In this document: positions 1 to 20,600 of the stretch, piece by piece
Numbering within the stretch: the first letter of the stretch is position 1
How the letters are laid out: each line of letters begins with the position of its first letter
Origin: a virus
Reading direction: 5' to 3' (one strand)
Length of the DNA: 23,422 bases
IMG/VR virus record: IMGVR_UViG_3300050821_000709
Span: 1-23,422 of that record
Notes under the pieces: generated by a model
Database searches by the model: none
The model's input: only the letters and a program-made list of their open reading frames with translations
What the model was told of the DNA's origin: nothing
Translations under genes and position numbers: made by a program

Positions 1-89
1 CGCCCTGGGCGAGAACCTTCACGGGCACCATGTCCCCGGCTCTCTCCGAGGCTGAGAAGCTCGTGGCCGACGTCAAGAAGGTTCTCTGA
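1..89 (+). CDS. C-terminal end of an unknown protein (partial)
   Basis: The reading frame starting at base 3 is open from the left edge to a TGA at 87-89 and gives the last 28 residues of a protein ending in a Lys/Glu/Val-rich, probably helical tail (SEAEKLVADVKKVL). The next gene starts 24 bases downstream with its own GAGG ribosome binding site, as expected for co-directional neighbours in one transcription unit. Too little is present to name a family. The frame choice is supported only by the open frame and the neat spacing to the next gene. Confidence 0.55.
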   Translation, partial: PWARTFTGTMSPALSEAEKLVADVKKVL

Positions 90-113: not shown

Positions 114-1598
114 ATGCGCAAACTGGTATGCTCCGCTTCTATCGCCGCCATCGTTACGGTCCTGGCTTCTGCGTCGGCGCAGGCCTATCAGGTCTACCCC
201 GGCTGCACTGTTCCGCCCGCCGCGCCGGCCGCGACCGCGCAGGTCTGGTACGTCGACCCGGTCAACGGCAAGACTCCCGCAGCCGGCGGCAACGGATCGC
301 AGGCTGCGCCGTGGAACTCGATCCAGGGCGTCCTCAGCGGCCTCTGGGACAACAACATCGTCGTGCCGGGCTACACACGCCCGCTGCTGTCGAGCGTCCC
401 CTACAACCATCAAGGCCTCCACACCGCCGACAATCTGGGCAACCCGCCTGTCCATCCCGGCGACACGATCATGCTGATGACCGGGAATTACGGCAACGTG
501 GCCATCGGCACCAACGGCGTGAGCACCGCTAACTCCGACTGGGTCACGGTCCAGGCTGCACCTGGTGCCCTTCCGGTGTTCTCCGGGCTCACGATGAGCG
601 GGACGAACAAGTGGATCTTCAACGGTGTCAAGATCACCGGCGTGGTTCCGACCGTGCGCGGGCCTTTCCCGCCGGCGCTCTTGGCCGTCTCGGATCAGGG
701 AGCCGCGATCCCAACCACTGACATCATCTTCAACGGCATGCAGCTCAGCACGGTGGATGACGCGTCTGCATGGACCAAGGCTCAGTGGCAGACCTCAGGC
801 CGCAACGGCTTCACCGCGACGGCCACTGCCGGCAACGGGACGAACGGCCAGCCGAACCTGACTTGCATCTCGATGACAAATTCGAAGATCAAGAACGTGC
901 GCTGGGGCATTACGATGGTGCAGAACAATTCGCTGTTCGCCAACAACGACCTCGGTTATTTCGGCGACGACGGCATCGACTACGCGGCCAACAATATCGC
1001 CATCACGAACAACTACCTGCATGACAACTTCGACGTTGGAGACTCCAACCATGAGGACGCGATGCAGGGGCAGAACGGCCCGACTGGTGGCCGCCCGCTC
1101 AACTTCTATTCGAACATCCTGATCGACCGCAATGTCGTCGTACGTCAGACGGACCCCGCCCTACCCTTCCCGACCTATCTGCAGGGGATCGACGCGTTCG
1201 ACGAGGATTGGACGAACCTGACGATCACGAACAACGTCATCGTCACCAGCTCATGCTACGCGGTCGCGGTGTCCAGCATCCACAACAGTTTGATCGCCGG
1301 CAACGTCGGCCTGGACGACGGGAAGGTGGTCACCGCTGGCTGCACGCCAGGGATCGGTGGCGGCCAGCAGACTCACGAAGGTCCTCCCAGCACGAACAGC
1401 CGGTTCTCGAACAACATCGCGAACTCCTACACGATCGGCGGACCTGGCGCGGTCGGCGTGACCTACGACCACAATCTCGCGGTCAACGGCGGCTTCGTCC
1501 ACTACATCAATGGTGCGTGGGTGTTCGGCTCGCCTGTGGGCACGGACGCCAACGGCAACGTGACGATGGCCAAGGGGACATTCACCTACCCGGATTGA
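114..1598 (+). CDS. Secreted right-handed parallel beta-helix protein (pectate-lyase-like fold)
   Basis: This 494-residue protein starts at an ATG 9 bases after GAGG (101-104). Residues 1-24 form a typical Sec signal peptide: basic MRK, a hydrophobic Ala/Val/Leu core and an A-Q-A cleavage site. The rest reads as short repeated strands of the beta-helix type: 'WVTVQAAPGALPVFSGL', 'KWIFNGVKITGV', 'NIAITNNYLHDN', 'NLTITNNVIVTSS', 'HNSLIAGNVGLDD'. An N-H-x-D-x-x-Q motif at residues 312-318 (NHEDAMQ) sits on a helix turn, as in many polysaccharide-lyase-like beta-helix proteins. Such folds usually bind or cleave acidic polysaccharides, and phage tailspikes use them too. The signal peptide argues for export by the cell rather than assembly into a virion. 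It is the first of three consecutive signal-peptide genes. The substrate and catalytic residues cannot be determined from sequence alone. Confidence 0.72.
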   Translation: MRKLVCSASIAAIVTVLASASAQAYQVYPGCTVPPAAPAATAQVWYVDPVNGKTPAAGGNGSQAAPWNSIQGVLSGLWDNNIVVPGYTRPLLSSVPYNHQGLHTADNLGNPPVHPGDTIMLMTGNYGNVAIGTNGVSTANSDWVTVQAAPGALPVFSGLTMSGTNKWIFNGVKITGVVPTVRGPFPPALLAVSDQGAAIPTTDIIFNGMQLSTVDDASAWTKAQWQTSGRNGFTATATAGNGTNGQPNLTCISMTNSKIKNVRWGITMVQNNSLFANNDLGYFGDDGIDYAANNIAITNNYLHDNFDVGDSNHEDAMQGQNGPTGGRPLNFYSNILIDRNVVVRQTDPALPFPTYLQGIDAFDEDWTNLTITNNVIVTSSCYAVAVSSIHNSLIAGNVGLDDGKVVTAGCTPGIGGGQQTHEGPPSTNSRFSNNIANSYTIGGPGAVGVTYDHNLAVNGGFVHYINGAWVFGSPVGTDANGNVTMAKGTFTYPD

Positions 1599-1600
1599 TC

Positions 1601-1636
1601 TGACATTTAAGTAACTTCGGAGCTGAAATGAAACTT
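1601..1636 (+). repeat. Leader/start-region repeat, copy 1
   Basis: The bases from TGACA at 1601 through the first codons of the 1604-residue gene closely match those before the serine protease gene at 6480-6514. Both run TGACA-(3 nt)-AAGT-(1 nt)-AC, then GGAGCTGAAATGAAACTT, with small differences only between these blocks. The shared part includes the GGAG ribosome binding site and codons Met-Lys-Leu. The match suggests one translation-initiation and signal-peptide cassette was copied to drive two secreted proteins. Confidence 0.75.
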
Positions 1637-4600
1637 TTTGTTGCTGTCGCCACCCTCGCCCTCGCAGCCATGACGGGGCTGGGTGTGGCGGGCTTGGTCC
1701 AGCGGCCTGCGATGCACGGGCACCCAGCCACCGGCGGTGGCGGCACGACGTTCGCCACAGGCATCACGCTTCAGCCGATCGATGGTGAAAGCCTCACCGG
1801 GGCCAACAACCTGACCTCGACTACGAACACGCACAACTACTTCGCGCGTAACGGGTTCACGTTCGCTGCGAGTTCTACGTACAACGCCAATTACAACAAC
1901 GGCGGCTGGGACGATCCCCGCTTCTTTCCGATCTGCGATGACCGCGCTTTCGCAGAGGGGACAGACACTTCTGTCTTTAAGGCTCTAGGACTTAACTGCG
2001 TTGTGCGCGTGACCTCGAACTACAACATGAGCCTTCTGGACGCCGCCGGCATCTACGCTATTTCTCAGCCAACAGAAAATCCTGGGTTTGGGAATGAGAC
2101 CGTCGGGTGGCACATAGACGAGCCATTTTGCTGGAATAATACTGACACCTGTTCCTCCGGCGAGCCTGATGTGGTGACGAATGTGACGTCGGCAGGGGAC
2201 GGCAATGCTGGCCGTTTTCGTCACGCGTCTTTCACTCCGGACGTGTTCGAGGTTGGGGTGCCGAATCGTGGGGTTGAAAACGCCCCGCTCGGCAGCATGG
2301 CCGGAGTTATGGGAACCGGAATCAGCACGTCCGGTGGGACGGTAACGCTGAATACCCCATCGGCGGAGGTCTACTGGTTTGCTAGCTCGTCTCTGCCAGC
2401 CAGCGGGAACCCGTTACCGCAAATCGTCTGCGGCTTTCTCTATAACGGCGGGACCAACTGCTCGGCGGCGCAGATGGCAGACGGCGCTTTCTACGGTGAC
2501 GCGGTGGATATCGAGCGGTCGTCGTGGATGACCTCTCCTGCCGTGTCTGCCCCCCTTGCCGGAAGCTACGTCGAGACTGAAGAGGCGCTTTTCACCCAGG
2601 GCGGTCGAAGGATTCTCCCTCAGGAATATTCATGGGCTATTTGGTCAGAGATCATTCACGGGGTCAGACAGCTTAATCTCTTTGGGGGAATTAGCAACTT
2701 CGGCGCGTCCGCGACATTTGGGTTCGACGCAAACACCTTACCCGGGGCGCAGATCTTCCAATACAACCCCGGCGCGCTGATTGTGAACATGCAGAGTCAG
2801 GCGACGATCACGCATTTGGCGATCGCCAATCTGGCTCCGATCATCAAGTCCCCATTTGCCTTGAATTACGTCTCGGCTACGCCTGCGGGATATAAGTTCC
2901 CGACACTCCATCAGGTCATGACCAACGGCATCGACTCGATGGCGAAATGGTTCACAGGCACGCCCTATACACCGTCATCGGGGCCGTTCGCCGGGACAAC
3001 GTTCGGCGACGGCTTCTACATCTTCGCCAACGTTCGTGGCTCGGCTACGCAGACGAACATCAGTGCGACCTTCACGATCACAGGCGCACCGACCCAAACC
3101 GGGATCCCGGTCGTCGGTGAGGGCCGTACAGTGAGCATCACAAACGGCGTTCTCACCGACACGTTCGCCAACGCCTACATCACCCACATCTATGGGCCCA
3201 TTCCCGCTTCCAGCGTTCAGGCGTCAAATTGCCCCATGGGCAGTGCGTTGCCGGATGGGTGCGCGGGTGCTCCCGCGCCTCTGACTGCTCAGTTCTACCA
3301 ACCTAATGGCTTCCAGTCTGGCGGGTACATCAACACGACTGCCGCGACATCTGCCAACTATATGGCGGCGAACTGCGGCCCATCAGCCAATGTCGCATGT
3401 CGACCACAGTGGAACGTCGCCGGCTTTGATTACGCCATCGGTAATTATAATCTGAGCGGCTCCCCAGTCCTCCAAGATCCAGCCACCATGTCGCTTGCCG
3501 GGTGTAGCTATAGTCTCACAGCCTCTGGGACGGGCGCAGGACTTCTAACGTGTGGCAACCCAGGCTTTGCAGGTTTGCTCCAACATGTCGAGCTTGGTCC
3601 TGTCGGCGGCCACGGCTGCACAGCACTTCGGCTGAACGGGTCTTCTGCGGCTACGACTTATACGCTCGACGATATCCACTACTTTAATGATAGCGGAATG
3701 TGCTCTGCCTTTGTCAGTTCTGAACCGTTCGCTATCCTTACCCCAGCCATAACACAGAACGTAGTTATGACGAATATATTTATGGACGGGAATGCTCGCA
3801 CTTGGCCGAATGAACAGGGTGGTTGCGCAACACTTCTTTGCAACCCTGGCGCGGCTTGGAGCATCAGCACAACTGGCTCGCTGACAATCAAGTATACCGT
3901 CGCGCTCAATTTCGCCGGTCGTGCGATGAGCATGCCAGCGAATGCGTCATCCGTCGCCATGCAGTTCAGTTACGTTGAGGGATGGCTGGCCAAGGCTTTA
4001 TGGGGTCACGGCGAGTGGTATTTGGGCGGTGGCGCATCGCAAGGCGTTGGCTCACTGACCTTAAGTTACATGACCGCTGTGGATCGGTGGGATGTTCAGC
4101 AGCAAGGAGAAGCCCCCATCTTTCCAGCGACGAATTTTCCTAATGCAACAGGTGCGCTCGACATAGACCATTTCGTCAACATCAACTCGTCGGTTGGCAA
4201 GGCTTCAAAGACTGGCACTTTCCAAGGATGTATCGGAGCAACGTTCAGCGGCGGAGCCTGCTCAGGGGCCGGGAACAAATTCTTCATGACATCTCTGACG
4301 GGAACGATTGGCTACGGTATTGCGATAGGCGCATACGGAGTTGCTGGCTGCAATACCAGCGGCAACGTTTATTATTTCGATACTGATCTGGGGGCTGGTT
4401 CTGGATATATTGATTCCTGGACTATGGACTCCGCCACTACGCCAGCATCTTTGCTTTCGGTCGGCCCGTTTAACGGGTGCCCCAGCAATTCGTTCACCAA
4501 CCAGATTGCCAACATTGGGTTTCTGGCTCTTGGCGGGGCTCCTCTGGGAACCTCGACTATCCATGACAACTACATGGATGTGGCCAGCATGGCTGGAGCG

Positions 4601-6442
4601 CCTGCGAGCCCCAACATTTACAGCACGGGCGTTGGCATCGCGGTTACCAACGTCACGGGCACAGTCTCCAACGCTACCCTGACCCTATCCGCACCGGCAA
4701 CAATCGTTGTGCAGTCGTCCGCAAACGGCACCGGCATCACTGGATGCTCTTCAGGTATCTTGGGTTGTCCGGTGACCACTACCCCAACTTCAACCGGAAC
4801 TGTATTCACGCTCGACACGAGTGGTGGAAGCGTGGGGCCGATCCCGATTGCGATGACGCAGCAAACCTTCTGCACCACGCCGACAACCTTCTCTAACAAC
4901 ATCGACATGACCGGAACACCGGCCACCCAGGCGGTAGTCAATCGGTGGTCGCAAAACCCATCTTTAGGATGCGACGGCAGTGGTGGCAGCACGACGTTCG
5001 CCACAGGCATCACGCTTCAGCCGATCGATGGCGAGACGCTGACCGGGGCGAACAACCTGATCTCGACTACGAACACGCACAGCTACTTCAGCAGGAGCGG
5101 ATTCACCAAGGCGTCAAGTTCGACCTATAACGCCAATTACAACAATGGCGGATGGGACGATCCACGCTTCTTCCCGATCTGTCAGGATTACGCCTTCGGT
5201 AATGGGACAAGCACCGCTGTCTTTCTGGCTATGGGGCTTAACTGCTCCGTGCGCGTAACTACGCCCTACACCATTAGCCTTCTCGACGCTGCTGGCATCT
5301 ACGCGATTCCGCAGCCGACAGAAAATCCCGGATTTGGGAATGAAAGCGTTGGCTGGCATCTCGAGGAGCCTCAGTGTTACGATAACACAGCGGGAGGTTG
5401 CGCGGGACAGCCAGATATCGTCAGCAATGTGAAGTCCGCCGGGGCAGGCAATGCGGGGCGATTCAGGCATCCGAGCTTCACCGGCAACCAGTTTGCTTTT
5501 GGACCTCCTGGCGGATCGCCCGGCGGGACTATGCAAGGACTCATGGGGACGGGAATCAGCACGACCGGTGGCACTGTGCACCCCGACACTCCCTCGGCAG
5601 ATATCTATTGGTTTGCTAGCTCGCCTCAGCCAGGTGGGGGCGCTCAGTTTTTTTGCGGATTGATCTATAACGGTGGGACCAACTGCTCGACGGCCCAGAC
5701 TGCGGATGGGGCCTTCTATGGTGATATGGCCGATGTTGAACGTTCGTGGCTAACATCCCCCGCTGTGTCAGCCCCTCTCGCCGGAGCTTATATTGAGACT
5801 GAAGACGGGCTTGTCGGCGCAGGCGGCCGTGAAATTATTCCCCAGGAATACTCTTGGGCCATTTGGTCCTCGATCATTCACGGGATACGGCAACTCAATC
5901 TCTTCGGGGCGACATCGAACTTCGGCACTGGCGCAACCTTTGGGTTTGGCACGACGGTCCTGTCCGGTGCGCAGATTTTTCAGTACAATCCAGGCGCGCT
6001 CACTGCGACGATGCAGCACCAAGGGACGATCACACATCTGGCGATCGCCGATCTTGCACCGATCATAAATTCCCCGTTTGCTCTCAATTACGTCTCCACG
6101 TCTCCGACCGGATATAAATTCCCGACGCTGCATCAGGTCATGACCAACGGCATTGACTCGATGGCGAAATATTACGGCCCCAATGCAGGTGCGCCGTTCA
6201 CCCCGTCGTCTGGTCCGTTTTCTGGCACGACATTTGGGAATGGATTTTACATCTTCGCCGACGTTCGCGGCTTGCCTACACAGACGAACATCAGTGCGAC
6301 CTTCACGATCACCGGTGCGCCGACCAAAACGGGGATCCCGGTGGTGGGCGAGGGCCGTACAGTGAACATCACAAACGGTGTTTTGACCGATACGTTCGCC
6401 AACGCCTACACCACCCACATCTATGGGCCGATCACCCCTTGA
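1628..6442 (+). CDS. Giant secreted protein: glycosidase-like domain, beta-rich linker, second glycosidase-like domain
   Basis: This 1604-residue protein starts at ATG after GGAG. Residues 1-25 are a signal or anchor segment (MKLF, then a hydrophobic Ala/Val/Leu/Gly run). Residues 40-526 and 1122-1604 are two copies of one domain. Each holds a G-W-x-x-[DE]-E-P motif (E165 / E1247), an E-T-E motif (E316, E318 / E1390, E1392), a W-S-x-I-I-H-G-[VI]-R-Q-L-N-L-F-G stretch and a C-terminal 'TDTFANAY-THIYGP' stretch. Together these resemble TIM-barrel glycoside hydrolases with a C-terminal beta-sandwich, and the two Glu sites would suit a retaining mechanism; I cannot assign a GH family. Residues 527-1121 are Gly/Ser/Thr/Asn-rich and probably beta-helical ('TSTIHDNYMDVASM'). 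Many Cys are conserved between the copies (PIC, LNC, FCGL/VCGF, GTNC), fitting oxidised extracellular folding. Base composition drops in the linker. Tailspike is an alternative role, but the signal sequence speaks against it. The enzyme call is inferred. Confidence 0.65.
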   Translation: MKLFVAVATLALAAMTGLGVAGLVQRPAMHGHPATGGGGTTFATGITLQPIDGESLTGANNLTSTTNTHNYFARNGFTFAASSTYNANYNNGGWDDPRFFPICDDRAFAEGTDTSVFKALGLNCVVRVTSNYNMSLLDAAGIYAISQPTENPGFGNETVGWHIDEPFCWNNTDTCSSGEPDVVTNVTSAGDGNAGRFRHASFTPDVFEVGVPNRGVENAPLGSMAGVMGTGISTSGGTVTLNTPSAEVYWFASSSLPASGNPLPQIVCGFLYNGGTNCSAAQMADGAFYGDAVDIERSSWMTSPAVSAPLAGSYVETEEALFTQGGRRILPQEYSWAIWSEIIHGVRQLNLFGGISNFGASATFGFDANTLPGAQIFQYNPGALIVNMQSQATITHLAIANLAPIIKSPFALNYVSATPAGYKFPTLHQVMTNGIDSMAKWFTGTPYTPSSGPFAGTTFGDGFYIFANVRGSATQTNISATFTITGAPTQTGIPVVGEGRTVSITNGVLTDTFANAYITHIYGPIPASSVQASNCPMGSALPDGCAGAPAPLTAQFYQPNGFQSGGYINTTAATSANYMAANCGPSANVACRPQWNVAGFDYAIGNYNLSGSPVLQDPATMSLAGCSYSLTASGTGAGLLTCGNPGFAGLLQHVELGPVGGHGCTALRLNGSSAATTYTLDDIHYFNDSGMCSAFVSSEPFAILTPAITQNVVMTNIFMDGNARTWPNEQGGCATLLCNPGAAWSISTTGSLTIKYTVALNFAGRAMSMPANASSVAMQFSYVEGWLAKALWGHGEWYLGGGASQGVGSLTLSYMTAVDRWDVQQQGEAPIFPATNFPNATGALDIDHFVNINSSVGKASKTGTFQGCIGATFSGGACSGAGNKFFMTSLTGTIGYGIAIGAYGVAGCNTSGNVYYFDTDLGAGSGYIDSWTMDSATTPASLLSVGPFNGCPSNSFTNQIANIGFLALGGAPLGTSTIHDNYMDVASMAGAPASPNIYSTGVGIAVTNVTGTVSNATLTLSAPATIVVQSSANGTGITGCSSGILGCPVTTTPTSTGTVFTLDTSGGSVGPIPIAMTQQTFCTTPTTFSNNIDMTGTPATQAVVNRWSQNPSLGCDGSGGSTTFATGITLQPIDGETLTGANNLISTTNTHSYFSRSGFTKASSSTYNANYNNGGWDDPRFFPICQDYAFGNGTSTAVFLAMGLNCSVRVTTPYTISLLDAAGIYAIPQPTENPGFGNESVGWHLEEPQCYDNTAGGCAGQPDIVSNVKSAGAGNAGRFRHPSFTGNQFAFGPPGGSPGGTMQGLMGTGISTTGGTVHPDTPSADIYWFASSPQPGGGAQFFCGLIYNGGTNCSTAQTADGAFYGDMADVERSWLTSPAVSAPLAGAYIETEDGLVGAGGREIIPQEYSWAIWSSIIHGIRQLNLFGATSNFGTGATFGFGTTVLSGAQIFQYNPGALTATMQHQGTITHLAIADLAPIINSPFALNYVSTSPTGYKFPTLHQVMTNGIDSMAKYYGPNAGAPFTPSSGPFSGTTFGNGFYIFADVRGLPTQTNISATFTITGAPTKTGIPVVGEGRTVNITNGVLTDTFANAYTTHIYGPITP
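1745..3205 (+). repeat. Domain duplication, copy A (N-terminal glycosidase-like domain)
   Basis: This segment encodes residues 40-526 of the 1604-residue protein and is repeated in frame at 4991-6439. The match is near-identical at DNA level at the two ends (for example ACGACGTTCGCCACAGGCAT at the start, and the block around CAGACGAACATCAGTGCGAC towards the end) and more diverged in the middle, where several short insertions and deletions occur. It keeps G-W-H-I-D-E-P (W161, D164, E165). Confidence 0.9.
4991..6439 (+). repeat. Domain duplication, copy B (C-terminal glycosidase-like domain)
   Basis: This segment encodes residues 1122-1604 and is the direct repeat of 1745-3205. All the large motifs of copy A are present, but the G-W-H-x-D-E-P motif reads G-W-H-L-E-E-P (E1246, E1247), so the first acidic residue has changed from Asp to Glu. 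High identity at both borders and lower identity inside suggest a fairly recent duplication, or gene conversion limited to the ends. Confidence 0.9.
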
Positions 6443-6468
6443 CACACTGAGATCAACCCTCATATTGC
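6439..6468 (+). promoter_or_regulatory. Candidate sigma-70-type promoter before the serine protease gene
   Basis: A perfect TTGACA at 6439-6444 overlaps the stop codon of the upstream gene. It is followed by CATATT at 6461-6466 after 16 bases, or TATTGC at 6463-6468 after 18 bases. The -10 match is weak (four of six at best). The 63-base gap before the protease start is among the longest in the window, which leaves room for a separate promoter. Chance occurrence of TTGACA is possible. Confidence 0.35.
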
Positions 6469-6479
6469 TGGTCGTACAC

Positions 6480-6514
6480 TGACACGCAAGTGACATGGAG
6501 CTGAAATGAAACTT
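6480..6514 (+). repeat. Leader/start-region repeat, copy 2
   Basis: This is the second copy of the leader found at 1601-1636, ending in GGAGCTGAAATGAAACTT. It supplies the ribosome binding site and the first three codons of the serine protease gene. After these codons the two genes diverge. Confidence 0.75.
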
Positions 6515-7522
6515 CTCGCTGCCGCTTCCCTCTTCGCCCTACTCGCCGCCGCGCCGGCCGTTGCCGGCCCTGCTGACCCGGCCACCATCAACGACGTGAT
6601 CAACGCGACGAACTTCGTCGTGGCGAACCAGTGTTCAGGCACGCTGATCAGCCTCAAATACAAGCTGGTCCTCACCAACGATCATTGCCTCAGCGGCTAC
6701 GTCGACAAGGTCGAGAAGGAAGAGACAGGCAAGGACGGCAAGGTCGAGACCGTCAAGCGCGAAGTTTTCAAGGACATGGAGCTGAAGCAGAAGTCCTACG
6801 CGAATTTCGAGGAAGTCAGCGCCGCGACCTTCCAGGCCAAGGTCCTGTTCCACAGCGCCAAATATGATCTCGCGCTTCTCAAGATCAAGGCCGACAGCAT
6901 CCCGCAGACGATGGCCTCGCAGGTCCTGCCGGACAGCAAGCATGTTCAGCGCGGCGACAAGGTCTATGTTGTGGGTAACCCGCTGCTGCTCGATGCTAAC
7001 CTGAACGAAGGTGTCGTCTCCTCGATCAACCGGTCGATCCACTGGGACGAGACCAACGAAGACGTCCACTATTACGGTATCGACGCCGGCGTGAACCCGG
7101 GCAACTCGGGCGGCGCGCTCTACAACAATGACCTGGAGCTGATCGGCGTCCCCGGCGCTGGCGTGAAGGGTATGACCGGCCTTGGCTTCGCCATCCCGGC
7201 CGAGACCATCCGCGCGTTCCTCTCCGAGCATTGCTACGAGAGCGTCTGGAACGACAAGGCCAAGGACAAGGAGACCTGTGAGAGTGGCAAGCTCGACAAG
7301 GTCAACGAGTCCCGCGCTAAGGCCGGCCTGCCCGCTCTTGAGGCCCCCAAGGAGCAAGACAGCCTACAGGGTGACGGCACTGTCGCCCACGCCACGCACC
7401 TCGACGTCGAGAAGCCTGTACCGGCTCCTGCTGCCGCTCCTCCGATGTCGTCGCCATTGGCCCGCAAGGCCGAGTGGTCACTGCTCGGCTTCCTGAGTGG
7501 CTGGGGCATCGAGGTCCGATGA
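6506..7522 (+). CDS. Secreted trypsin-like (S1-type) serine protease
   Basis: The protein has 338 residues. Residues 1-20 are a clear Sec signal peptide (MKLLAAASLF..., cleavage after A-V-A or nearby). The chymotrypsin-fold triad is complete: H60 in 'LTNDHCL', D121 in 'KYDLALLKI' and S201 in 'GVNPGNSGGAL'. C43 and C61 flank the His as in the conserved His-loop disulfide. The pattern around Ser and the 'GLGFAIPAETIRAFL' end resemble HtrA/Deg-type catalytic domains, but there is no PDZ domain. Instead there is a Lys/Glu-rich insertion (about residues 66-95) and a C-terminal Pro/Ala linker ending in a short Trp-containing hydrophobic tail. The start is fixed by GGAG and the signal peptide. The gene shares its leader with the upstream glycosidase-like gene, which suggests joint deployment of secreted enzymes. 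The natural substrate is unknown; it could process its two secreted neighbours or degrade host surface or matrix protein. Confidence 0.85.
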   Translation: MKLLAAASLFALLAAAPAVAGPADPATINDVINATNFVVANQCSGTLISLKYKLVLTNDHCLSGYVDKVEKEETGKDGKVETVKREVFKDMELKQKSYANFEEVSAATFQAKVLFHSAKYDLALLKIKADSIPQTMASQVLPDSKHVQRGDKVYVVGNPLLLDANLNEGVVSSINRSIHWDETNEDVHYYGIDAGVNPGNSGGALYNNDLELIGVPGAGVKGMTGLGFAIPAETIRAFLSEHCYESVWNDKAKDKETCESGKLDKVNESRAKAGLPALEAPKEQDSLQGDGTVAHATHLDVEKPVPAPAAAPPMSSPLARKAEWSLLGFLSGWGIEVR

Positions 7523-7581
7523 GCCAGCTCGCCATCGTTGTCGTCATCGTGGTGCTTCTCTGCATACGCGCGATGCTGTGA
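7519..7581 (+). CDS. 20-residue hydrophobic micropeptide
   Basis: ATG at 7519 overlaps the protease stop as ATGA, and its own TGA (7579-7581) shares one base with the ATG of the next gene. Residues 3-14 are almost entirely Ala/Ile/Val/Leu, followed by Cys-Ile-Arg, which gives a minimal membrane-spanning peptide. No independent family evidence exists for something this short. The case for a real gene is the exact stop/start chaining on both sides and the membrane-like composition. If real, a small phage membrane function (lysis or membrane modulation) is possible but unproven. Confidence 0.45.
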   Translation: MSQLAIVVVIVVLLCIRAML

Positions 7582-7697
7582 TGGACCACGGTGTTATCTA
7601 CATCGCCGGCGTCGGGGCCCTGCTTGTAGGCTTTGGCCTCGGATCGGTCTTGGTCGCCTGGGCGGTGACCAGGATCTTCCCTCCGCCGCCCTGGTGA
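7581..7697 (+). CDS. Small single-span membrane protein (38 aa)
   Basis: ATG at 7581 lies in the upstream stop region (TGATG). The product has a short polar N-terminus (MDHG), one hydrophobic Gly/Val/Leu/Ala-rich segment of about 24 residues, then Thr-Arg and a Pro-rich end (IFPPPPW). The size and single span are compatible with a small holin-like or accessory membrane protein, and phages often keep lysis genes near the terminase. No enzymatic lysis gene is visible beside it, so the function remains open. A longer in-frame version from 7497 would run through the end of the protease gene and is less likely. Confidence 0.55.
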   Translation: MDHGVIYIAGVGALLVGFGLGSVLVAWAVTRIFPPPPW

Positions 7698-7701
7698 CGT
7701 T

Positions 7702-7878
7702 GTGAACCCTCTCATCCCGCTCATCCGCATGTCCAACGACATCGCCAGGTTTCTCGGCGCGGTGCCGACCCGTAAGACCGCGTTCGGGATCGATCTGTTC
7801 GACCCTGTGACCGAGGTGTTCGTCTGGACCTTTCAAGGCGAACGGCTGGTGATGCCGAAGCTGATCCTGTGGATGTGA
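7702..7878 (+). CDS. Small protein of unknown function (58 aa)
   Basis: This is an open frame from GTG at 7702, four bases after the previous stop, to TGA at 7876-7878. An ATG at 7729 would give a 49-residue version. The product is soluble-looking and contains 'FGIDLFDPVTEVFVWTFQGERLVMPKLIL', which reads as alternating hydrophobic strands. No strong ribosome binding site precedes either start, so translational coupling is likely. Next gene starts 3 bases later. Family not recognised. Confidence 0.5.
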   Translation: MNPLIPLIRMSNDIARFLGAVPTRKTAFGIDLFDPVTEVFVWTFQGERLVMPKLILWM

Positions 7879-7881
7879 TCC

Positions 7882-8085
7882 ATGGGCCGGGCCACCACCA
7901 TTGTCTACCCTGATCTCAGGGACAGGCTCAGCGCGCGTGATGACTTCTCCGTCATCCGTGACGAAGCATGGGATGATCACATACGCTTCATCGAGTTCCT
8001 GCATCCTGAAGCCCCCGATGGCCGCCACGTCGATGTGATCCTTGAAGGGCCGGTGCTGCGGTTTAAGCCGGACGCCGATGTCTGA
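7882..8085 (+). CDS. Small acidic protein of unknown function (67 aa)
   Basis: ATG at 7882 to TGA at 8083-8085, overlapping the terminase start by 8 bases. The product is rich in Asp/Glu/Arg and alternates between strand-like and helix-like segments ('FSVIRDEAWDDHIRFIEFLH', 'HVDVILEGPVLRFKP'). Its position directly before the large terminase is where a small terminase subunit is often found. At 67 residues, with no visible helix-turn-helix, I do not call it one. Confidence 0.55.
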   Translation: MGRATTIVYPDLRDRLSARDDFSVIRDEAWDDHIRFIEFLHPEAPDGRHVDVILEGPVLRFKPDADV

Positions 8086-9640
8086 CGCCCCCATCATTTA
8101 CTACAAGCCGCCGCCGATCGCCCGGGAGTTCATGAGACGCCACCTGAAGGGCGAGCTTTTCTACGACTGGATCGTTGGCCCGTTCGGCAGCGCCAAGACC
8201 ACCGCGGCTTTCATGAAGCTCTGCTACCTCGCCGCTCAACAGGAGCCTAGCCCAGATGGTTTCCGATACTCCCGCGCCGTGGTTGTCAGGAACACGAACC
8301 CGCAGCTCACTGACAATACGCTTGTCTCATGGAACTACTGGTTCCAAGACGGTAAGCACGGAGAGTGGCATGCCTCCGAGAGGCGGTTCACCCTCCGGTT
8401 CAGCGATGTCATCTGTGAGGTACTCTTTCGACCTCTTGACACCCCCGCTGACGTGGTTCGTGTCCTCGGTCTCGAGGTAACCTTCGCTATAATCGACGAG
8501 TTCCGCGAGATCCCCAAGCAGATCGTCGAAAACCTGTCAGGTCGTCTCGGCCGGTACAAGATCCCTGGTGGTGTCAAGCCAACAACGTGGGGCATGTGGG
8601 GCCAGAGCAACCCAGGAACTGAAGATATTTGGTGGTACGATTACCTTCACAGCACAGTGAACCAGGAGACCGGCAAGCGTCAGGGCTGCGTCCCAGTCAT
8701 GTTCCCGCAAGACGACGCGGCCCAGGCAGCGTATCAGCGGCTGATGGGCTTCTCCAGCGACGAGGAGACTCAGACTGACGAAGACGGTAACGTCACGCAT
8801 GTCAACAACGCCTGGTATTTCCTGCAGCCATCCGGTCTTTCGAAGGATGCCGAGAACCTAGAGAACTTGCCTGGCAAGCGCTCGTACTACACCAACCTCG
8901 CCAAGGGCAAATCACATGGCTGGGTCAAGCAGTATATCGATGCCGAGTGGGGCTTCTCGGCCGCCGGGACGCCTGTCATTTCGAGTTTCTCGGGCGACAA
9001 ACACATCTCATCGACTCCCCTGCCCTTCGATCGGCGCAAGGCGCTCGTGGTCGGCACTGACCCCGGTCTGGGCGGTTCGGCCTTTGTTTTCATGCAGCAA
9101 GCGTGGAACGGGCGTGTCAATGTACTGGGAGAACTGGTCCAGCGCGGCCTCGGTGCGGAGCGTTTGATCAAGGAGCGGCTTCAGCCGTACCTCACTGAGC
9201 GATTCCCTGGGGCAAAAGTGATCATCGCGTTAGATCCGGCTGCCTCGATCCGCAACAATAACGACGAGAAGCGGGTTATGCAGACATTCAGGAAGGTCTA
9301 CCCTATCGCGATCGAGAGCAATAACCGACTACCTCTTAGAATTAACGCATACGATCACTATTTCTCTACTCTAATCGAGGGTGGGTCCGCTACACTGATC
9401 GATGGAGGTCAGTGTCCTAACCTGATCCGCGCGCTGAAAGGCGGCTGGCGATACGGGATTGATATAAAACGCGATGAGATCAAGGGCGCAGAGCCTGAGA
9501 AAAACTCGTGGTCGCACGTTGGCGACGCTGGCGGATACGGATACCGCTACTTTCATAAAGGCATTGTCGCCCAAGACCCTGAGCGCCGCGGGGCCTTCCG
9601 CCCGCCAGTGTTCTCTGGTAATGAGTACAACGCTCAGTAA
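8078..9640 (+). CDS. terL: Terminase large subunit (DNA-packaging ATPase/nuclease)
   Basis: This 520-residue packaging motor subunit starts at ATG 8078. The frame extends upstream to a TTG at 8042, but that would deepen the overlap with the preceding gene. The ATPase domain has a Walker A-type loop G-P-F-G-S-A-K-T at residues 34-41 and a Walker B 'TFAIIDE' ending at D140-E141. The RNase H-like nuclease domain follows, with acidic residues at D328 ('VVGTDPGLGG'), D386 ('VIIALDPAA') and D483 ('HVGDAGGYGY'), in the order usual for terminases. It cuts concatemeric DNA and pumps it through the portal, encoded next but one. The length is normal for podoviral terminases. The Walker A lacks the common second glycine (GxxGxGK), reading G-S-A-K, a known type of variation in terminases. 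Confidence 0.93.
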   Translation: MSDAPIIYYKPPPIAREFMRRHLKGELFYDWIVGPFGSAKTTAAFMKLCYLAAQQEPSPDGFRYSRAVVVRNTNPQLTDNTLVSWNYWFQDGKHGEWHASERRFTLRFSDVICEVLFRPLDTPADVVRVLGLEVTFAIIDEFREIPKQIVENLSGRLGRYKIPGGVKPTTWGMWGQSNPGTEDIWWYDYLHSTVNQETGKRQGCVPVMFPQDDAAQAAYQRLMGFSSDEETQTDEDGNVTHVNNAWYFLQPSGLSKDAENLENLPGKRSYYTNLAKGKSHGWVKQYIDAEWGFSAAGTPVISSFSGDKHISSTPLPFDRRKALVVGTDPGLGGSAFVFMQQAWNGRVNVLGELVQRGLGAERLIKERLQPYLTERFPGAKVIIALDPAASIRNNNDEKRVMQTFRKVYPIAIESNNRLPLRINAYDHYFSTLIEGGSATLIDGGQCPNLIRALKGGWRYGIDIKRDEIKGAEPEKNSWSHVGDAGGYGYRYFHKGIVAQDPERRGAFRPPVFSGNEYNAQ

Positions 9641-9657
9641 AGTGGGATCACACTGAC

Positions 9658-9843
9658 ATGGCCGACACCAAGAAATCAGGATCATTTGACGGCAAGTCCA
9701 ATGCTCTCGGGCATGGCGGCCGTGCAGCGCAGCTGAAGGCCCAAGGCGTGCCAGGCGGCGTGATCGGCGACATCGCCCGCGCGAAGGGCGCTGCCCCTGG
9801 CGGCAAGAATTTCCACGGCAAAGGCATGCCGAAGCCGCGATGA
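9658..9843 (+). CDS. Small basic Gly/Ala-rich protein (61 aa)
   Basis: ATG at 9658 lies 17 bases after the terminase stop; the stop at 9841-9843 overlaps the portal start by 4 bases (ATGA). The product is rich in Lys, Gly and Ala ('GHGGRAAQLKAQGVPGGVIGDIARAKGAAPGGKNFHGKG') with no hydrophobic core and is probably partly disordered, possibly nucleic-acid binding. Its location between terL and the portal gene and the coupled overlap support a real gene. Function unknown. Confidence 0.65.
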   Translation: MADTKKSGSFDGKSNALGHGGRAAQLKAQGVPGGVIGDIARAKGAAPGGKNFHGKGMPKPR

Positions 9844-12101
9844 CCGACAATCTTCCTGCCGAAGTCGAGAACAAACCGCCGACCGTCACTGTTCCGGTGG
9901 CGAGCAAAGACGCGCCTGTACGAGAGATCCCCGGTACAAACCTGACCATGCTGGCGCACCGCCTCATGGCGCTGTTCGACCAGTACCGCATTGAGCGCCG
10001 CATCGCAGAAGAGCGATGGCTGCGCAACCAGCGTCAGTATCTCGGCATCTACGACCCCGAGATCGAGCAGGCGATGAACCCTAACCGGTCCAAAGCCTAT
10101 CCGAAGATCACCAGGGTCAAGTGCATCACCGTCGTGTCGCACATGATGAATTTGCTTTTTCCTGGCAACGAACGGAACTGGGAGCTGAAGCCGGGCCCGC
10201 CCACGGATATTTCGCTGGACGACGTCAAGCAGGCGATCGCTGAGCAGCAGAGCCGTGATCAGGCTGCCGGCGTGCAGCCGCAGCCGGTCGACGCCGATTA
10301 CGCGATGTCGGCGGTTCACGAGTTGCTCTGCGACCGCGCCGAGAAACTCAGTTGCGTGATCGACGACCAGCTTGAGGAACTAGGTGGAGACCAGCACTAT
10401 GACTACATCGCTCTTAACCGTGAAGTGATCCAGAGCGGCACCCTGTATGGGCTCGGGCTTCTTCGTGGTCCGTTCGCCGTCCCCTGCAAAACGGTCGAGT
10501 GGTCGATGGAAGAGGGGCAGAACGTCCCGATGCCGAAGGCCAAGACTTCCTACAAGCCGATGTTCGAGTTTGTCAGTATCTGGGACTTCTACCCGGATTT
10601 GACTGCGAAGACCTTCGGCTCTGCAAATGGCTATTTCCTGCGCAAGGTCATGAGCAAGTCACAAGTAATTAAGCTCAAGAAACGGCCTGACTTCTTCGCA
10701 GAACAGATCGACGCGTATCTAGATCTACATCCAACAGGTAACTACAAGGCGCTTGAGTTCGAGTGGCTGTTACGTGTTATGGGTGTGCGGTCCAACGTCA
10801 ACGACCAGAAGCCCGACAATCAGAGATACGAGATCAAGATCTGGTGTGGCAAACTGGACGGACGTATGCTTGAACTGTGCGGCTGTGATGTAGACCAAGA
10901 TAAGCTAAACGAAGAGCTGGACGCAGAAGTCTGGTTCATCGACGATTTCATTATCTGCTGCAAGCTCGACCCGTGGGCTAAGCTCAAGGTCGACGTGAAT
11001 ATGCTGCACTGGTTCCTTTACGACAAGGACGACACCTCACCGATAGGCTATGGCCTGCCGAACGCCATCCGTGACAGCCAGATGATGGTCAGCGCGGCGA
11101 CGCGCATGCTGCTCGACAACGCGTCAGTGACCTGCGGACCCAACCTGGAGCTTAATACGGCGCTCCTGCGCGCGGACCAGGATCTGACCAGCCTGCGGTC
11201 CTACCGCATGTGGTATCGTGACGACAGTGACGTGACCGCTCAGTGGCCTGCCGTGCGCAACGTCCAGATCGACAGCCACATGAAAGAGCTGATGGAGATC
11301 ATCCAGCTCGGGCTGAAGTTCGCCGACACCGAGACTTTCGTCAACGCCGCCAACGGGGCCGACCCATCAGAACTGCCGAGTGAGCCGATGCGCACTGCAT
11401 CCGGCGCGAGCATGCTCAGAGGCAACGCGGCGCTGCCGTTCAAGGACATGGTCCGGGGCTTCGACAGGTTCACGCAGTCAGTGCTCCAGTCGATCGTGGC
11501 CTTCAATCGGGTCTTCAACCCGAACACGGACCACAACGGCGACTACAACGTGATCGCCCGCGGCGCGACGAGCCTGATCGCCAAGGAAGTCAAGGGCGAG
11601 CAAGCCGACCAGCTGGCGCAGACACTGACACCGGAAGAGAAGATCTACGTGGACGCGAAGAAGCTCCTGAAGGTTCGCCTTCGAGCCCGCGACATGGACG
11701 ACATCATGGTCAGCGACAGCGAAGCCGCTCGCCGCCAGGCCGCGCAGGATCAAGATCAACAGAAGCAGGAAGACCAGCAAGATCAGATGCAGCAGGCGCA
11801 ACTACGCAAGTTGCTCACCGATGGCTACAAGAACATGGCTGCAGGGCAGAAGAATATCTCCGCAGCCGACGCGACTACTATCTCCGCATTTATCGACATA
11901 CTTGAAAGAGGAGCAATGATCCATGGAGCCCAACCACAACTCGCAGGCCCAGCAGCCGGTAACCCCCAAGGCCCAGATGATGGAACTGGAGCAGCTGATC
12001 CGCAGGGAGCGGGACCGCAACCCAGCGATCTTGGCGCTCCTGCAGCTCCTCCGCCTCAGGCTGGAGGATATCCGGGACAAACTGGTAACTTCGGCTCCTG
12101 A
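9840..12101 (+). CDS. Portal (head-to-tail connector) protein
   Basis: This 753-residue protein starts with an ATGA overlap with the previous gene. The length, position after terL and content match large podoviral portals. The early part has a helical 'RRIAEERWLRNQRQYLGIYDPEIE' region and 'KAYPKITRVKCITVVSHMMNLLFPGNERNWEL'. A strand-rich wing follows with 'FEFVSIWDFYPDLTAKTFGSANGYFLRKVMSK'. Then comes a long stem/crown-like helical part ('MLHWFLYDKDDTSPIGYGLPNAIRDSQMMVSAATRMLLDN'). Residues about 640-675 are Gln/Asp-rich coiled coil, and the last 60 residues are a Gly/Pro/Ala/Gln-rich tail. That tail is encoded by DNA which also carries a second gene in another frame (11923-12204). The protein forms the ring at the DNA-entry vertex and docks the terminase and the adaptor (15765-16595). 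Confidence 0.85.
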   Translation: MTDNLPAEVENKPPTVTVPVASKDAPVREIPGTNLTMLAHRLMALFDQYRIERRIAEERWLRNQRQYLGIYDPEIEQAMNPNRSKAYPKITRVKCITVVSHMMNLLFPGNERNWELKPGPPTDISLDDVKQAIAEQQSRDQAAGVQPQPVDADYAMSAVHELLCDRAEKLSCVIDDQLEELGGDQHYDYIALNREVIQSGTLYGLGLLRGPFAVPCKTVEWSMEEGQNVPMPKAKTSYKPMFEFVSIWDFYPDLTAKTFGSANGYFLRKVMSKSQVIKLKKRPDFFAEQIDAYLDLHPTGNYKALEFEWLLRVMGVRSNVNDQKPDNQRYEIKIWCGKLDGRMLELCGCDVDQDKLNEELDAEVWFIDDFIICCKLDPWAKLKVDVNMLHWFLYDKDDTSPIGYGLPNAIRDSQMMVSAATRMLLDNASVTCGPNLELNTALLRADQDLTSLRSYRMWYRDDSDVTAQWPAVRNVQIDSHMKELMEIIQLGLKFADTETFVNAANGADPSELPSEPMRTASGASMLRGNAALPFKDMVRGFDRFTQSVLQSIVAFNRVFNPNTDHNGDYNVIARGATSLIAKEVKGEQADQLAQTLTPEEKIYVDAKKLLKVRLRARDMDDIMVSDSEAARRQAAQDQDQQKQEDQQDQMQQAQLRKLLTDGYKNMAAGQKNISAADATTISAFIDILERGAMIHGAQPQLAGPAAGNPQGPDDGTGAADPQGAGPQPSDLGAPAAPPPQAGGYPGQTGNFGS
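11905..11913 (+). promoter_or_regulatory. Ribosome binding site inside the portal gene
   Basis: AAAGAGGAG lies 9 bases before the ATG at 11923 and within the portal coding sequence. It is one of the stronger Shine-Dalgarno matches in the window and would drive the out-of-frame nested gene. Confidence 0.6.
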
Positions 12102-13111: not shown

Positions 13112-14173
13112 ATGGTTGCGATTACGTCATATGGTGACATCTCCCCCGCGGTTGCCGCGTGGAGTGTCGTCAAGATGCTGGAGCGCGCGATGCCGCTCCT
13201 CACACTCGAAAAATTCGGTCAGACGTACCCTTTGCCCACGCAGAGCACGCAGACCGCTAAGTTCCGTCGTTACTACCTGACCGGCTCGGCCGGCGCGGCC
13301 GGTCCCGACAACGGTGCGGGCGTCAACGGCGCAGGCACTGCGTTCAGCATCCCGACGGCCACCACGCCACTGACTGAAGGCGTGACCCCCTCGGGCGCGA
13401 CGCTGGCCAACACTGACTACACAGTGCAGCTGTATCAATACGGCAACTTCGCCACGATCACTGATGTGATCATCGACACGCACACTGACCCTGTGCTGGC
13501 GCAGATGACGGAAATCCTCGGCGAGAACGCCGCGGTCACTGTCGAGACGCTCCGCTGGAACGTCCTCAAGGCCGGCACGAACGTCTGGTACGGCAACAAC
13601 GTCGCCGCTCGCGTCAACGTCGTGACTGCGATCGCCCTCGCCGACCAGCGCCGGGTGACGACTGGCCTGAACCGCCAGAACGCCAAGAAGATCACGAAGG
13701 TTGTCGCGTCCACCCCGGACTTCAACACGACCTCCGTTGAAGCGGCCTACGTCGCGGTCGGTCACCCCGATCTGGAAAGCGATATCCGTAACATGACCGG
13801 CTTCATCCCGGTCGCCAAGTACGGCCCGCACTCGACTCCCTGGGAAGGCGAAATCGGCTCGGTCGAGCAGGTCCGCTACCTCATCACCACGATCGCCGCC
13901 CCCATCGCTGACGCCGGTGGCGCGAAGGGTGCTCTGCGGTCGACGTCAGGCACCAGCGCCGACATCTACCCGATCCTCATCTTCGCCCGCGACGCCTACG
14001 GGATTGTGCCCCTCAAGGGCAGGTCCTCGATGGCTCCGATGGTCGTCAATCCGAAGCCGGCAGCGGGCGACCCCCTCGGCCAGCGCGGAACGGTCGGCTG
14101 GAAGCTCTGGACCGGAACCGTCATCCTTCAGGACGCCTTCATGGCCCGTCTCGAGGTTGGCGCTACGGCGTAA
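13112..14173 (+). CDS. Major capsid protein, N4-gp56 family type (HK97 fold)
   Basis: This 353-residue protein starts at ATG 13112 after GGAG. Features I associate with the N4-gp56 capsid family include the N-terminal 'KMLERAMPLLTLEKFGQTYPLPTQSTQTAKFRRY' segment, 'TPLTEGVTPSGATLANTDYTVQLYQYGNFATITDVI', the long helix 'QMTEILGENAAVTVETLRWNVLKAGTNVWYGN', 'DIRNMTGFIPVAKYG', 'GEIGSVEQVRYLITT', and the C-terminal 'IVPLKGRSSMAPMVVNPKPA--DPLGQRGTVGWKLWTGTVILQDAFMARLEVGA'. It has no long N-terminal delta-like domain, consistent with a separate scaffold. Codon choice is very regular (C/G third positions), as expected for a highly expressed gene. A GC-rich hairpin directly follows the stop. Confidence 0.9.
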   Translation: MVAITSYGDISPAVAAWSVVKMLERAMPLLTLEKFGQTYPLPTQSTQTAKFRRYYLTGSAGAAGPDNGAGVNGAGTAFSIPTATTPLTEGVTPSGATLANTDYTVQLYQYGNFATITDVIIDTHTDPVLAQMTEILGENAAVTVETLRWNVLKAGTNVWYGNNVAARVNVVTAIALADQRRVTTGLNRQNAKKITKVVASTPDFNTTSVEAAYVAVGHPDLESDIRNMTGFIPVAKYGPHSTPWEGEIGSVEQVRYLITTIAAPIADAGGAKGALRSTSGTSADIYPILIFARDAYGIVPLKGRSSMAPMVVNPKPAAGDPLGQRGTVGWKLWTGTVILQDAFMARLEVGATA

Positions 14174-17603: not shown

Positions 17604-20600
17604 ATGTCGATCTACGACGACATCAACGCACAAGCAAATCCGCCCCGGCCGTCAGCCCCGACTGGACCTGCGCCCGGGAGAGGCATGCCTGCGCCTACGC
17701 CCCGCGGCGACAACGGTCTCATGGGCTATGTCGAGGCTCCTGTCGCCGGCGCGCTCGGTACGGCCGCAAACGTCGTTCAGGCGGGCCAGGCCGGCGCGAA
17801 GGCTCTCGGTCTCGATAACGCCGCTGATACCGCTCGCGGCTGGGCTGACTATCTGCGCCAAGCCGGCGCAGGCTTCCAGAGCCCTGAACTAGAACAGAAC
17901 GCCCAGCAGCACCCGTGGAGCCCGTCCAACATCGGCTATCAGGTGCTGAAGGGTGCGCCAGGCATGGCCGCCACTCTCGGCGGTGCTCTCGTCGCACCTG
18001 AAGCAGTTGGCCCTGCGCTGGGCGCGGGTCTCGCCGCACTCCCCCAGATGATCGGCGGTAACGTCGAGACCTCAGAGGCTTCGAACGGCCCCCTCACTCA
18101 AGGGCAGGCCGCCAAGGCGATCGCGCTGGGCGTCCCCGAGGCTGCGCTGGGCGCGTGGACTGGCGGCCGGGCGGCTCAGACCTTAGCGGGCGGCATTGTC
18201 GCCAAGAGCGCCGCGCGCGCCGCGGCCAGCCAAGCGTTTGTCGGTGGTGTCGCAGGCGCTGGCCAAGACGTCATTGCTCAGCAGATGGGCGACCCCAACC
18301 GGCCGATCGCCGACCGCATGAACGAGATGATCGCCTCGGCGTTGACTGGCGCGCTGATGGGCGGCGGCCTCCATGCGCTGGCGAAGGCTCCCCCCGAGAG
18401 TGTCACCAACGAGCAGCTGCTCGACGCGACGAAGACCGCTGATCCGAACGCGCCCGCTGAACCCCAGAAACTCCTTCCTCCGCCCGCCATCCAGGCCGGA
18501 CCTCCGCTCGACACGATAGCTCCAGCGGACCTGATCGCGCGTGCGCGCGCAGGCGACAAGGATGCGGCGCAGGAGATGATGCGCCGTGCCGGGCCGTCAG
18601 CGCCCGCGCCAGAGGTACCTGCGCCTGAGACCGAACCGCTCGTTCCTCAACCAGATCTTGAGCAGGTCGGGCTGGGCAATGAGCCAGCCCCAGAACAGAT
18701 TCGCCCCCTGGACGAGGCCGCGACTCCGCCGACTGCGGAAGATTTTGAAGCCCAAGGCCCAGCACCCGCAGTCCCGCTCTCGAAGCAGGATATCGGGTCC
18801 AGGCTGTTCAACCAGATGGACCACACCAACGCGGACACGCAGCGCGAGTCATTTCTCGACGCGCTGCCTGACGCTGCCCAGACCGGCGACCAGCCGTTGA
18901 AGGGCGCGCAGTTGCGCGCCGCTAAGGCGCTCGACATCCCCGTGGACGAGAAGACCGGCAAGATTATCCCAGAGACCGCCGAGAACGCGGTCCCACGAGA
19001 TGCCTTCACCACCAAGACGGAGAAGGCCAACTGGGACCAGGCGCAAGATCTGCGCGCGCAGGTGGCTGACGCTCCGGCGATGACCGAAGCGCTCGATAAG
19101 GTTCAGACGACCCCTGGAGACAAGGACGCTCCCGCGCTCTTGCAAGCCGTTGAGGATCACGTCGCCAGTAAAGACACCGCTCCGCTACAAGCAGAGCCCA
19201 AGGGTGTGTTCGAAGGATCAGGAGCGTGGCATGTAGCACTGCCTGATGGGAACACCGCCCGGATCAGGGGGGTGCGCAACGGTACGGATTTCAGGGCGGA
19301 TATGGTCGACGTGGTAGACGGGGATGGTAATACCCTGCCACCAAATAGTGTTGGCCAGAAGACCGTCAAGCAGATTATGGGGGCATTCCTTCAAGCAAAC
19401 CCGGGGGTGAAGACGATCTCCGGGGCTCGGATAAGCGGGGCAAGAGCGGCAGCTGGGGTGGCGAACACGTCCCCAGAAGCCAAGGTAAATGTACTACCTC
19501 CCGAACCTGTCACGGGCCCGTCGGAAGAGGCTGTCGCCCAGACGCCGCCTGTGGCGACCAAGCCCGTTACGGACGCGATCGCCGCGGCGCAGCAGTCGAT
19601 CAAGGCGCTTCAGACACGCGTCACAGGTAAGCCAGACTTGGCTGGAGTCGACCAGGGCTACCAGAAGGGTCTGGCGCTCCAGAGCGCCAAGCTGGCCCAG
19701 ATCTCGGATTTGATTAAGGACGGTGGCCCACAGGCTCGCGCCACGCTCGCCTCAGTCGGCACGAAACCGTTCGCCTTGCAAGAGGTGTTCGATAGCTACG
19801 GAGGCAACTTCCCGCCTGTTGCACAGGCGTTGATGAAGAGCCATCTCGGCAAAGAGCAAGCCGTCTTGAACGAACTTGGGAAGGCCTACCCGCCGGGCGA
19901 CCTGTTCGGCCCGCGCGCCGCCCCGACTCCGCCGACACAGCAGGGCGTCGACCTCGAGCACATCGCTAACAGCGGCGGTACGCTCAAGGACCATCTCGCC
20001 TACCTGCAGACCAATGGCGAGAACGGCGCGATCAAGACGGTGGCACGTCTGCTGTCGGCAAACGGCGTGGACGCCCCGGTGCGTATATCTGGTGAGGGGC
20101 TGCGCGATGAGGCGGCGGCGCAATACGATCGCGGGAATAACTTGGTCAGTTTCCGCCCCGGCGAGACGAATGGTCAGATAGTGCTGCACGAGGCGATGCA
20201 CGTCGCCACTGCCAACGCTATCGACGCCGGAGGCCCGGCTGCAAGAGACATGCAGCAACTCTACGAGACGGTGAAGGCACGATCGCCAGGTAATGATGCC
20301 TACGGTCTCAAGAGTGCTCATGAATTTGTCGCAGAGGCCTTCACCAACCCAGAGTTCAACCAGTTCCTCGACAGCCACCCGGTCGACTCCACAGTGGAGC
20401 AGCCGAAGACGATGTGGCAGGCGTTCAAGGATACTGTCGCCAAACTTCTGGGCGCGCGTGGGGGCACGCGCACGATGCTAAACCAAGTCATCGAGACCAG
20501 TAACCGGCTGATGGACGAGAACCGCAGCGCACCCGCGACAGACGCCAGCCCGCTCTACGCCGCCAGTGATCGGGTCAAGCAAGCGCAAGAGTTTAAAGGT

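Follow-up and report, generated by a model that had tools for sequence, protein, structure and literature searches.

Phage depolymerases are usually regarded as parts of the virion, and phage-borne secreted enzymes are already known as a kind. Among described phages, the Sulfitobacter phages pCB2047-A, pCB2047-C, and NYA-2014a resemble the locus considered here in having a Trypsin_2 protease, with about 31-32% identity to ours across 213 amino acids, and the protein of the cultivated phage pCB2047-A is also leader-bearing. However, the Sulfitobacter phage gene lies beside lysis genes and not terL, it has neither of the beta-helix and giant protein genes described below as a neighbor, and its product lacks the long C-terminal extension. 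WceF of Pantoea stewartii is an exported right-handed beta-helix protein with a tailspike-like fold that cuts exopolysaccharide (PMC7949094), but it is the product of a bacterial gene, it has a Tat signal, it is a trimer, and no sequence relation to our beta-helix protein has been shown. V-Csn, a soil viral chitosanase, is an active polysaccharide-cutting phage enzyme (PMC9485262); it differs from the proteins described here in its GH75 fold, and the main text of that report does not mention a signal peptide. The T4 antiholin RI (PMC8385771) is a further tailed-phage product made with a cleavable Sec signal peptide, although it is a small lysis regulator and not an enzyme. A limited literature search, with most subscription journals outside it, found no report of a comparable secreted cassette; the three genes analyzed here are this phage's own assortment.

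The window, i.e., the whole stretch of DNA analyzed, is a linear contig of 23,422 bases from a virus of the podovirus type; no tRNA genes were found in it. Its packaging module is anchored by terL (8078-9640, plus strand; PHROG 2, E = 8e-22), which is 78% identical in contigs L004 and L005. The terminase resembles those of the short-tailed phages BcepC6B and Cronobacter phage Ss1, and its best match is to Pseudomonas phage Rollin at 39%. Genes for a portal-type protein (9840-12101), a scaffold-like ORF (from 12201), the major head protein (13112-14173), and more structural proteins follow on the plus strand. Positions 17604-23422 hold an ORF of at least 1939 amino acids that contains a PLxRFG-type domain and runs off the contig.

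Upstream of terL, and again on the plus strand, three genes lie in series and are hereafter called the trio: those for the beta-helix protein (114-1598; 494 amino acids), the giant protein (1628-6442; 1604 amino acids), and the protease (6506-7522; 338 amino acids). They are separated by gaps of 29 and 63 nt, respectively, and have plausible ribosome-binding sites. The trio is preceded by the 3' end of another plus-strand gene (3-89), whose product ends in SEAEKLVADVKKVL, and is followed by small plus-strand ORFs and then by terL. The first two of these may encode membrane peptides of 20 amino acids (7519-7581; MSQLAIVVVIVVLLCIRAML) and 38 amino acids (7581-7697; MDHGVIYIAGVGALLVGFGLGSVLVAWAVTRIFPPPPW); L004 also has small hydrophobic ORFs at this place, including a peptide, MDPGVAVMIVAGASLLLVGAGSILVAWAVSRWRP, similar to the second. 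Two small conserved ORFs without leaders (7702-7878 and 7882-8085, plus strand) complete the interval. The former has homologues before terL in L004, L005, and L016, and the latter has one before terL in L005; in both cases, 0/500 shuffles scored as high. Promoter and terminator scans gave no more sites than chance, and none stood out clearly as belonging to the trio itself; the sequence TTGACA-N16-CATATT at 6439-6466 is one of a class of sites whose count is at the chance level. Because the trio is encoded on the same strand as the late genes and has no clear signals of its own, its late expression is likely. In codon usage, the trio falls inside the range seen for the remaining genes of the phage, except for the middle region of the giant gene, which is just below that range.

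It had been predicted that the three consecutive genes before the small ORFs and terL all bear leaders, and this was borne out by both their coordinates and the leader calls. The calls were made with a purpose-written, rule-based caller that looks for a positive n-region, a hydrophobic h-region, and small residues at -3/-1. Of the 13 window proteins tested, it flagged the three of the trio and no others, whereas shuffles of the same window proteins were flagged at 1.3-1.6%. Across 85 terL-bearing loci, 13 of 369 upstream genes (the trio accounting for three) were flagged versus 5 of 404 downstream genes, and the leader background in related loci is 1-3%. Putative cleavage would follow MRKLVCSASIAAIVTVLASASAQA in the beta-helix protein, leaving YQV at the mature N-terminus; the corresponding sequences are MKLFVAVATLALAAMTGLGVAG before LVQ in the giant protein and MKLLAAASLFALLAAAPAVA before GPA in the protease. 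The giant protein leader is the weakest of the three, with a likely non-AxA site between VAG and L. An 18-nt leader sequence, GGAGCTGAAATGAAACTT, spans the ribosome-binding site and first codons at the giant gene start (1619-1636, plus strand), and an identical copy is present at the protease gene start (6497-6514, plus strand); even with up to three mismatches allowed, only 0.01 chance matches are expected. The common 18 nt suggest a shared or copied leader. Overall, export of the trio proteins is predicted from sequence and is well supported by comparison.

The third gene had been thought to encode an S1 serine protease, and its predicted product is confirmed as an HtrA/trypsin-like protease of the S1 clan without a PDZ domain. 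The protein matches the Trypsin_2/Trypsin profiles (Trypsin_2, E = 9.9e-21), its intact triad, H60/D121/S201, is invariant in four phage sequences, and Pfam gave no PDZ match. The curated DegP model scored 98.8 bits against a cut-off of 416, which leaves the protein outside the HtrA/DegP subfamily proper. A C-terminal extension of ~95 residues ends in WSLLGFLSGWGIEVR. In L004, a copy 74% identical occupies the same place before terL, and in L005, a divergent copy adjoins the terL region; a predicted lipoprotein (L005 6273-6971, with an LAAC lipobox) is encoded there between a TerS-like gene and the protease. The protease (dN/dS 0.20) and domain D of the giant protein (dN/dS 0.16) are both under purifying selection.

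No match to the beta-helix protein was found in Pfam, PHROGs, or NCBIfam, and a sequence search of solved structures returned nothing significant. Relatives are nevertheless present in two unrelated phages, represented by the locus L003, on a 103-kb contig (54% identical), and by L014, a contig with ribonucleotide reductase-like genes (about 36-38%). The L003 relative passes the Pfam Beta_helix model (32.2 bits versus a cut-off of 25.9), and an AF2 model of the window protein made from the three sequences is of moderate quality (pLDDT 63, pTM 0.72); on these two grounds, the original prediction of a beta-helix protein as the first of the three genes holds, and the modeled fold is a right-handed beta-helix. 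The top Foldseek matches to the model were GH136 lacto-N-biosidases, PL6 lyases, and AlgG/AlgE epimerases, which are secreted or periplasmic proteins that act on glycans, and the Sf6 tailspike was found further down. Every TM-score was below 0.5, however, with identities of 10-14%, and any PL6 or GH136 membership would be based on these fold matches and on no sequence match. The leader comprises residues 1-24, and the mature protein would begin YQVYPGC. Leaders are present in all three proteins; their sequences have diverged, but the mature start Q-V-Y-x-x-C is common to them, which is the pattern expected of functional signal peptides.

Bacterial genome scans with the beta-helix protein gave no confirmed relative, by a method that needs exact 7-8-residue matches and that distant relatives may escape; in all searches made, the family was found in viral contigs only. 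The tail module of the L003 contig is at ~34-54 kb and includes a 1537-aa tape-measure-like ORF, whereas the beta-helix gene is at 84.1-85.8 kb, ~30 kb off, and adjoins another leader-bearing gene. Its distance from the tail module speaks against an obligatory virion role. The adjoining gene, directly before that for the beta-helix protein, encodes 130 amino acids, and next to it, within positions 8576-9885 of the L003 locus, there is also a gene with a possible Tat-type leader (RRGFLRALG; Pfam TAT_signal below cut-off).

The giant protein likewise has no Pfam, PHROG, or NCBIfam match and represents a family without current annotation. It consists of the leader, a domain that we call D, a beta-helix-like middle, and a second D. 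Copy 1 of D, of about 489 amino acids, is encoded by 1733-3199, the middle region by 3200-4981, and copy 2 by 4982-6439, all on the plus strand. The two copies are 76% identical, and all six cysteines are kept in both. The original prediction described this protein as double glycosidase-like; the duplication is clear, but the glycosidase is without family or structure support. Family profile searches with domain D matched no glycoside hydrolase or other enzyme family, sequence searches of solved structures with domain D and the middle region returned nothing significant, and AlphaFold reached a pLDDT of only 27.6 on domain D. No family or fold stands behind the name double glycosidase, and it is best dropped until a structure exists. 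The high cysteine content of the protein had also been taken as evidence for an oxidizing location, an argument that fails because two other late genes have 2.5-2.8% cysteine while the giant protein has 1.87%; the conservation of six cysteines across the D copies is a better point.

The sole bacterial relative found for domain D is a predicted lipoprotein encoded on an Arthrobacter plasmid (L015), which matches nothing in Pfam either; copy 1 aligns with it over the full length at 26% identity. Scans of bacterial genomes with domain D, again dependent on exact 7-8-residue matches and liable to miss distant relatives, gave no confirmed relative, and none was found in a viral scan. The middle region, which is probably also a beta-helix, matches a 1005-aa phage protein of L002 in two colinear stretches, one 47% identical over 45 amino acids and the other TIHDNYMD. 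The L002 protein (8405-11422) has Ig-like domains and repeats, and its gene lies between portal-type and scaffold-type genes.

The idea of the trio as one linked unit next to terL did not survive comparison. The block was missing from each of the 43 further loci that have at least 3 kb before terL (one of the block scans was run without a positive control), and the protease alone recurs, in L004 and L005. The beta-helix and giant proteins look like exchangeable cargo, whereas the protease recurs in the phage group. The gene end at window positions 3-89 resembles that of a membrane/coiled-coil protein gene in L016 (local alignment 41, shuffled mean 21.8, 0/500 as high), a weak match with 28 residues remaining. 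Between the L016 gene ending ADVKKVL and terL lie 1.07 kb, compared with 7.99 kb in the window, where the trio comes after the similar gene end. This difference in spacing, anchored on the 28 residues, is suggestive of a cargo insertion. Misassembly or host contamination, raised beforehand as something that might undo the prediction, was judged unlikely from the protease-terL synteny in L004, the codon usage of the trio, and the finding of the beta-helix family in viral contigs only. Two related leader-bearing proteins (LSGTGDNVxF, IGxFNGQHT) are encoded upstream of terL in the relatives L053 (2004-2642) and L076 (302-973), in both cases on the opposite (minus) strand.

Predicted export is also seen in relatives of the same group. 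Contig L016 ends inside a 476-aa, cysteine-rich, repeat-like ORF that reads LLVAAITLAAPAFA followed, after the putative cleavage site, by GSIERPAMHKGAG; the mature start would be GSIERPAMH, and the leader lacks its first residues. A 5'-truncated leader of this type was found only in L016 by the criteria used, and the ORF shares RPAMH with the giant protein (GVAGLVQRPAMHGHPATG). In L005, a repeat protein encoded before the packaging genes (3560-5062) ends in LTAANFVL, and its C-terminus matches Peptidase_M10_C (22.5 bits versus a cut-off of 20.7); no such end occurs in the other 41 records searched. In serralysins, Peptidase_M10_C belongs to the type I secretion region, and the match suggests type I secretion of this phage protein. 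It had been considered as a tailspike, a candidacy dropped in view of this C-terminal Pfam match. Neither the L016 nor the L005 protein is significantly related in overall sequence to the beta-helix or giant protein of the window; they are different proteins and thus support a theme and not homology. It is conceivable, though in our view rather doubtful, that, during infection, this short-tailed phage group delivers exchangeable polymer-degrading enzymes beyond the cytoplasm through host export routes (Sec in the window phage and probably in L016, and type I in L005), in parallel to virion tailspikes.

For the window phage itself, we give about even chances to the trio being late-operon cargo whose products are exported by Sec, released at lysis or secreted, and then attack envelope or matrix polymers, easing progeny release and spread. 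The genes, part of the late operon immediately before terL, would be expressed late, and the infected cell would export their products by the Sec pathway. The proteins would fold and form disulfides in the periplasm, a placement by Sec export that the conserved cysteines fit. A Sec leader alone reaches only the Gram-negative periplasm, and action outside would thus need lysis or a further step through a host secretion system. Envelope or matrix polysaccharide would then be cut or modified by the beta-helix protein and probably also by the giant one, the HtrA-like protease would cut envelope or matrix proteins, and progeny would be released and spread more easily. The original prediction was that cells, and not virions, carry the trio out. 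Its export component is favored by the leaders of the homologues, the conserved cysteines, the L003 gene far from its tail module, and the intact protease triad; its treatment of the trio as one unit is not.

The exported enzymes could instead be lysogenic-conversion or auxiliary-metabolism cargo that serves the living lysogen, by feeding on environmental polysaccharide or remodeling its surface, and not the lytic cycle. Tyrosine integrases are present in G001, the nearest long relative, and in G013, the contig of a beta-helix relative, and thus leave room for a lysogen benefit; the Arthrobacter whose predicted lipoprotein resembles domain D is a soil bacterium, and soil viruses are known with an active chitosanase gene (PMC9485262). 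We nevertheless consider this unlikely, as the trio is just before the packaging genes, on the same strand, and lacks clear promoter and terminator signals, and there is no integrase among the ORFs of the window, which is an incomplete fragment. It appears quite improbable that the trio products are tail proteins or tailspikes of the virion and that their N-termini, though hydrophobic, do not signal export. Phage Rollin does have a tail-fibre gene upstream of terL, and the beta-helix is the usual tailspike fold, with Sf6 among the structural matches; however, leaders with a conserved cleavage context are present here and absent from the Rollin tail fibre, the L003 relative is far from tail genes, and the protease and domain D are related to proteins that are not virion components. 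Likewise quite improbable is a periplasmic lysis or exclusion function, in which the protease and small membrane peptides would aid lysis or destroy receptors while the two large proteins act on periplasmic polysaccharide: small hydrophobic ORFs do follow the protease in both the window and L004, and the pCB2047-A protease is beside a lysis cassette, but the protease of G001 is ~18 kb away from a likely endolysin and membrane gene and thus not a member of a lysis cassette there.

If the infected cell does export these enzymes, their effect on the surroundings would come at burst or earlier, which would change the view of phage spread in biofilms and of the viral turnover of environmental polysaccharide. 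Phage beta-helix genes would then need to be checked for export tags before they are annotated as tailspikes.
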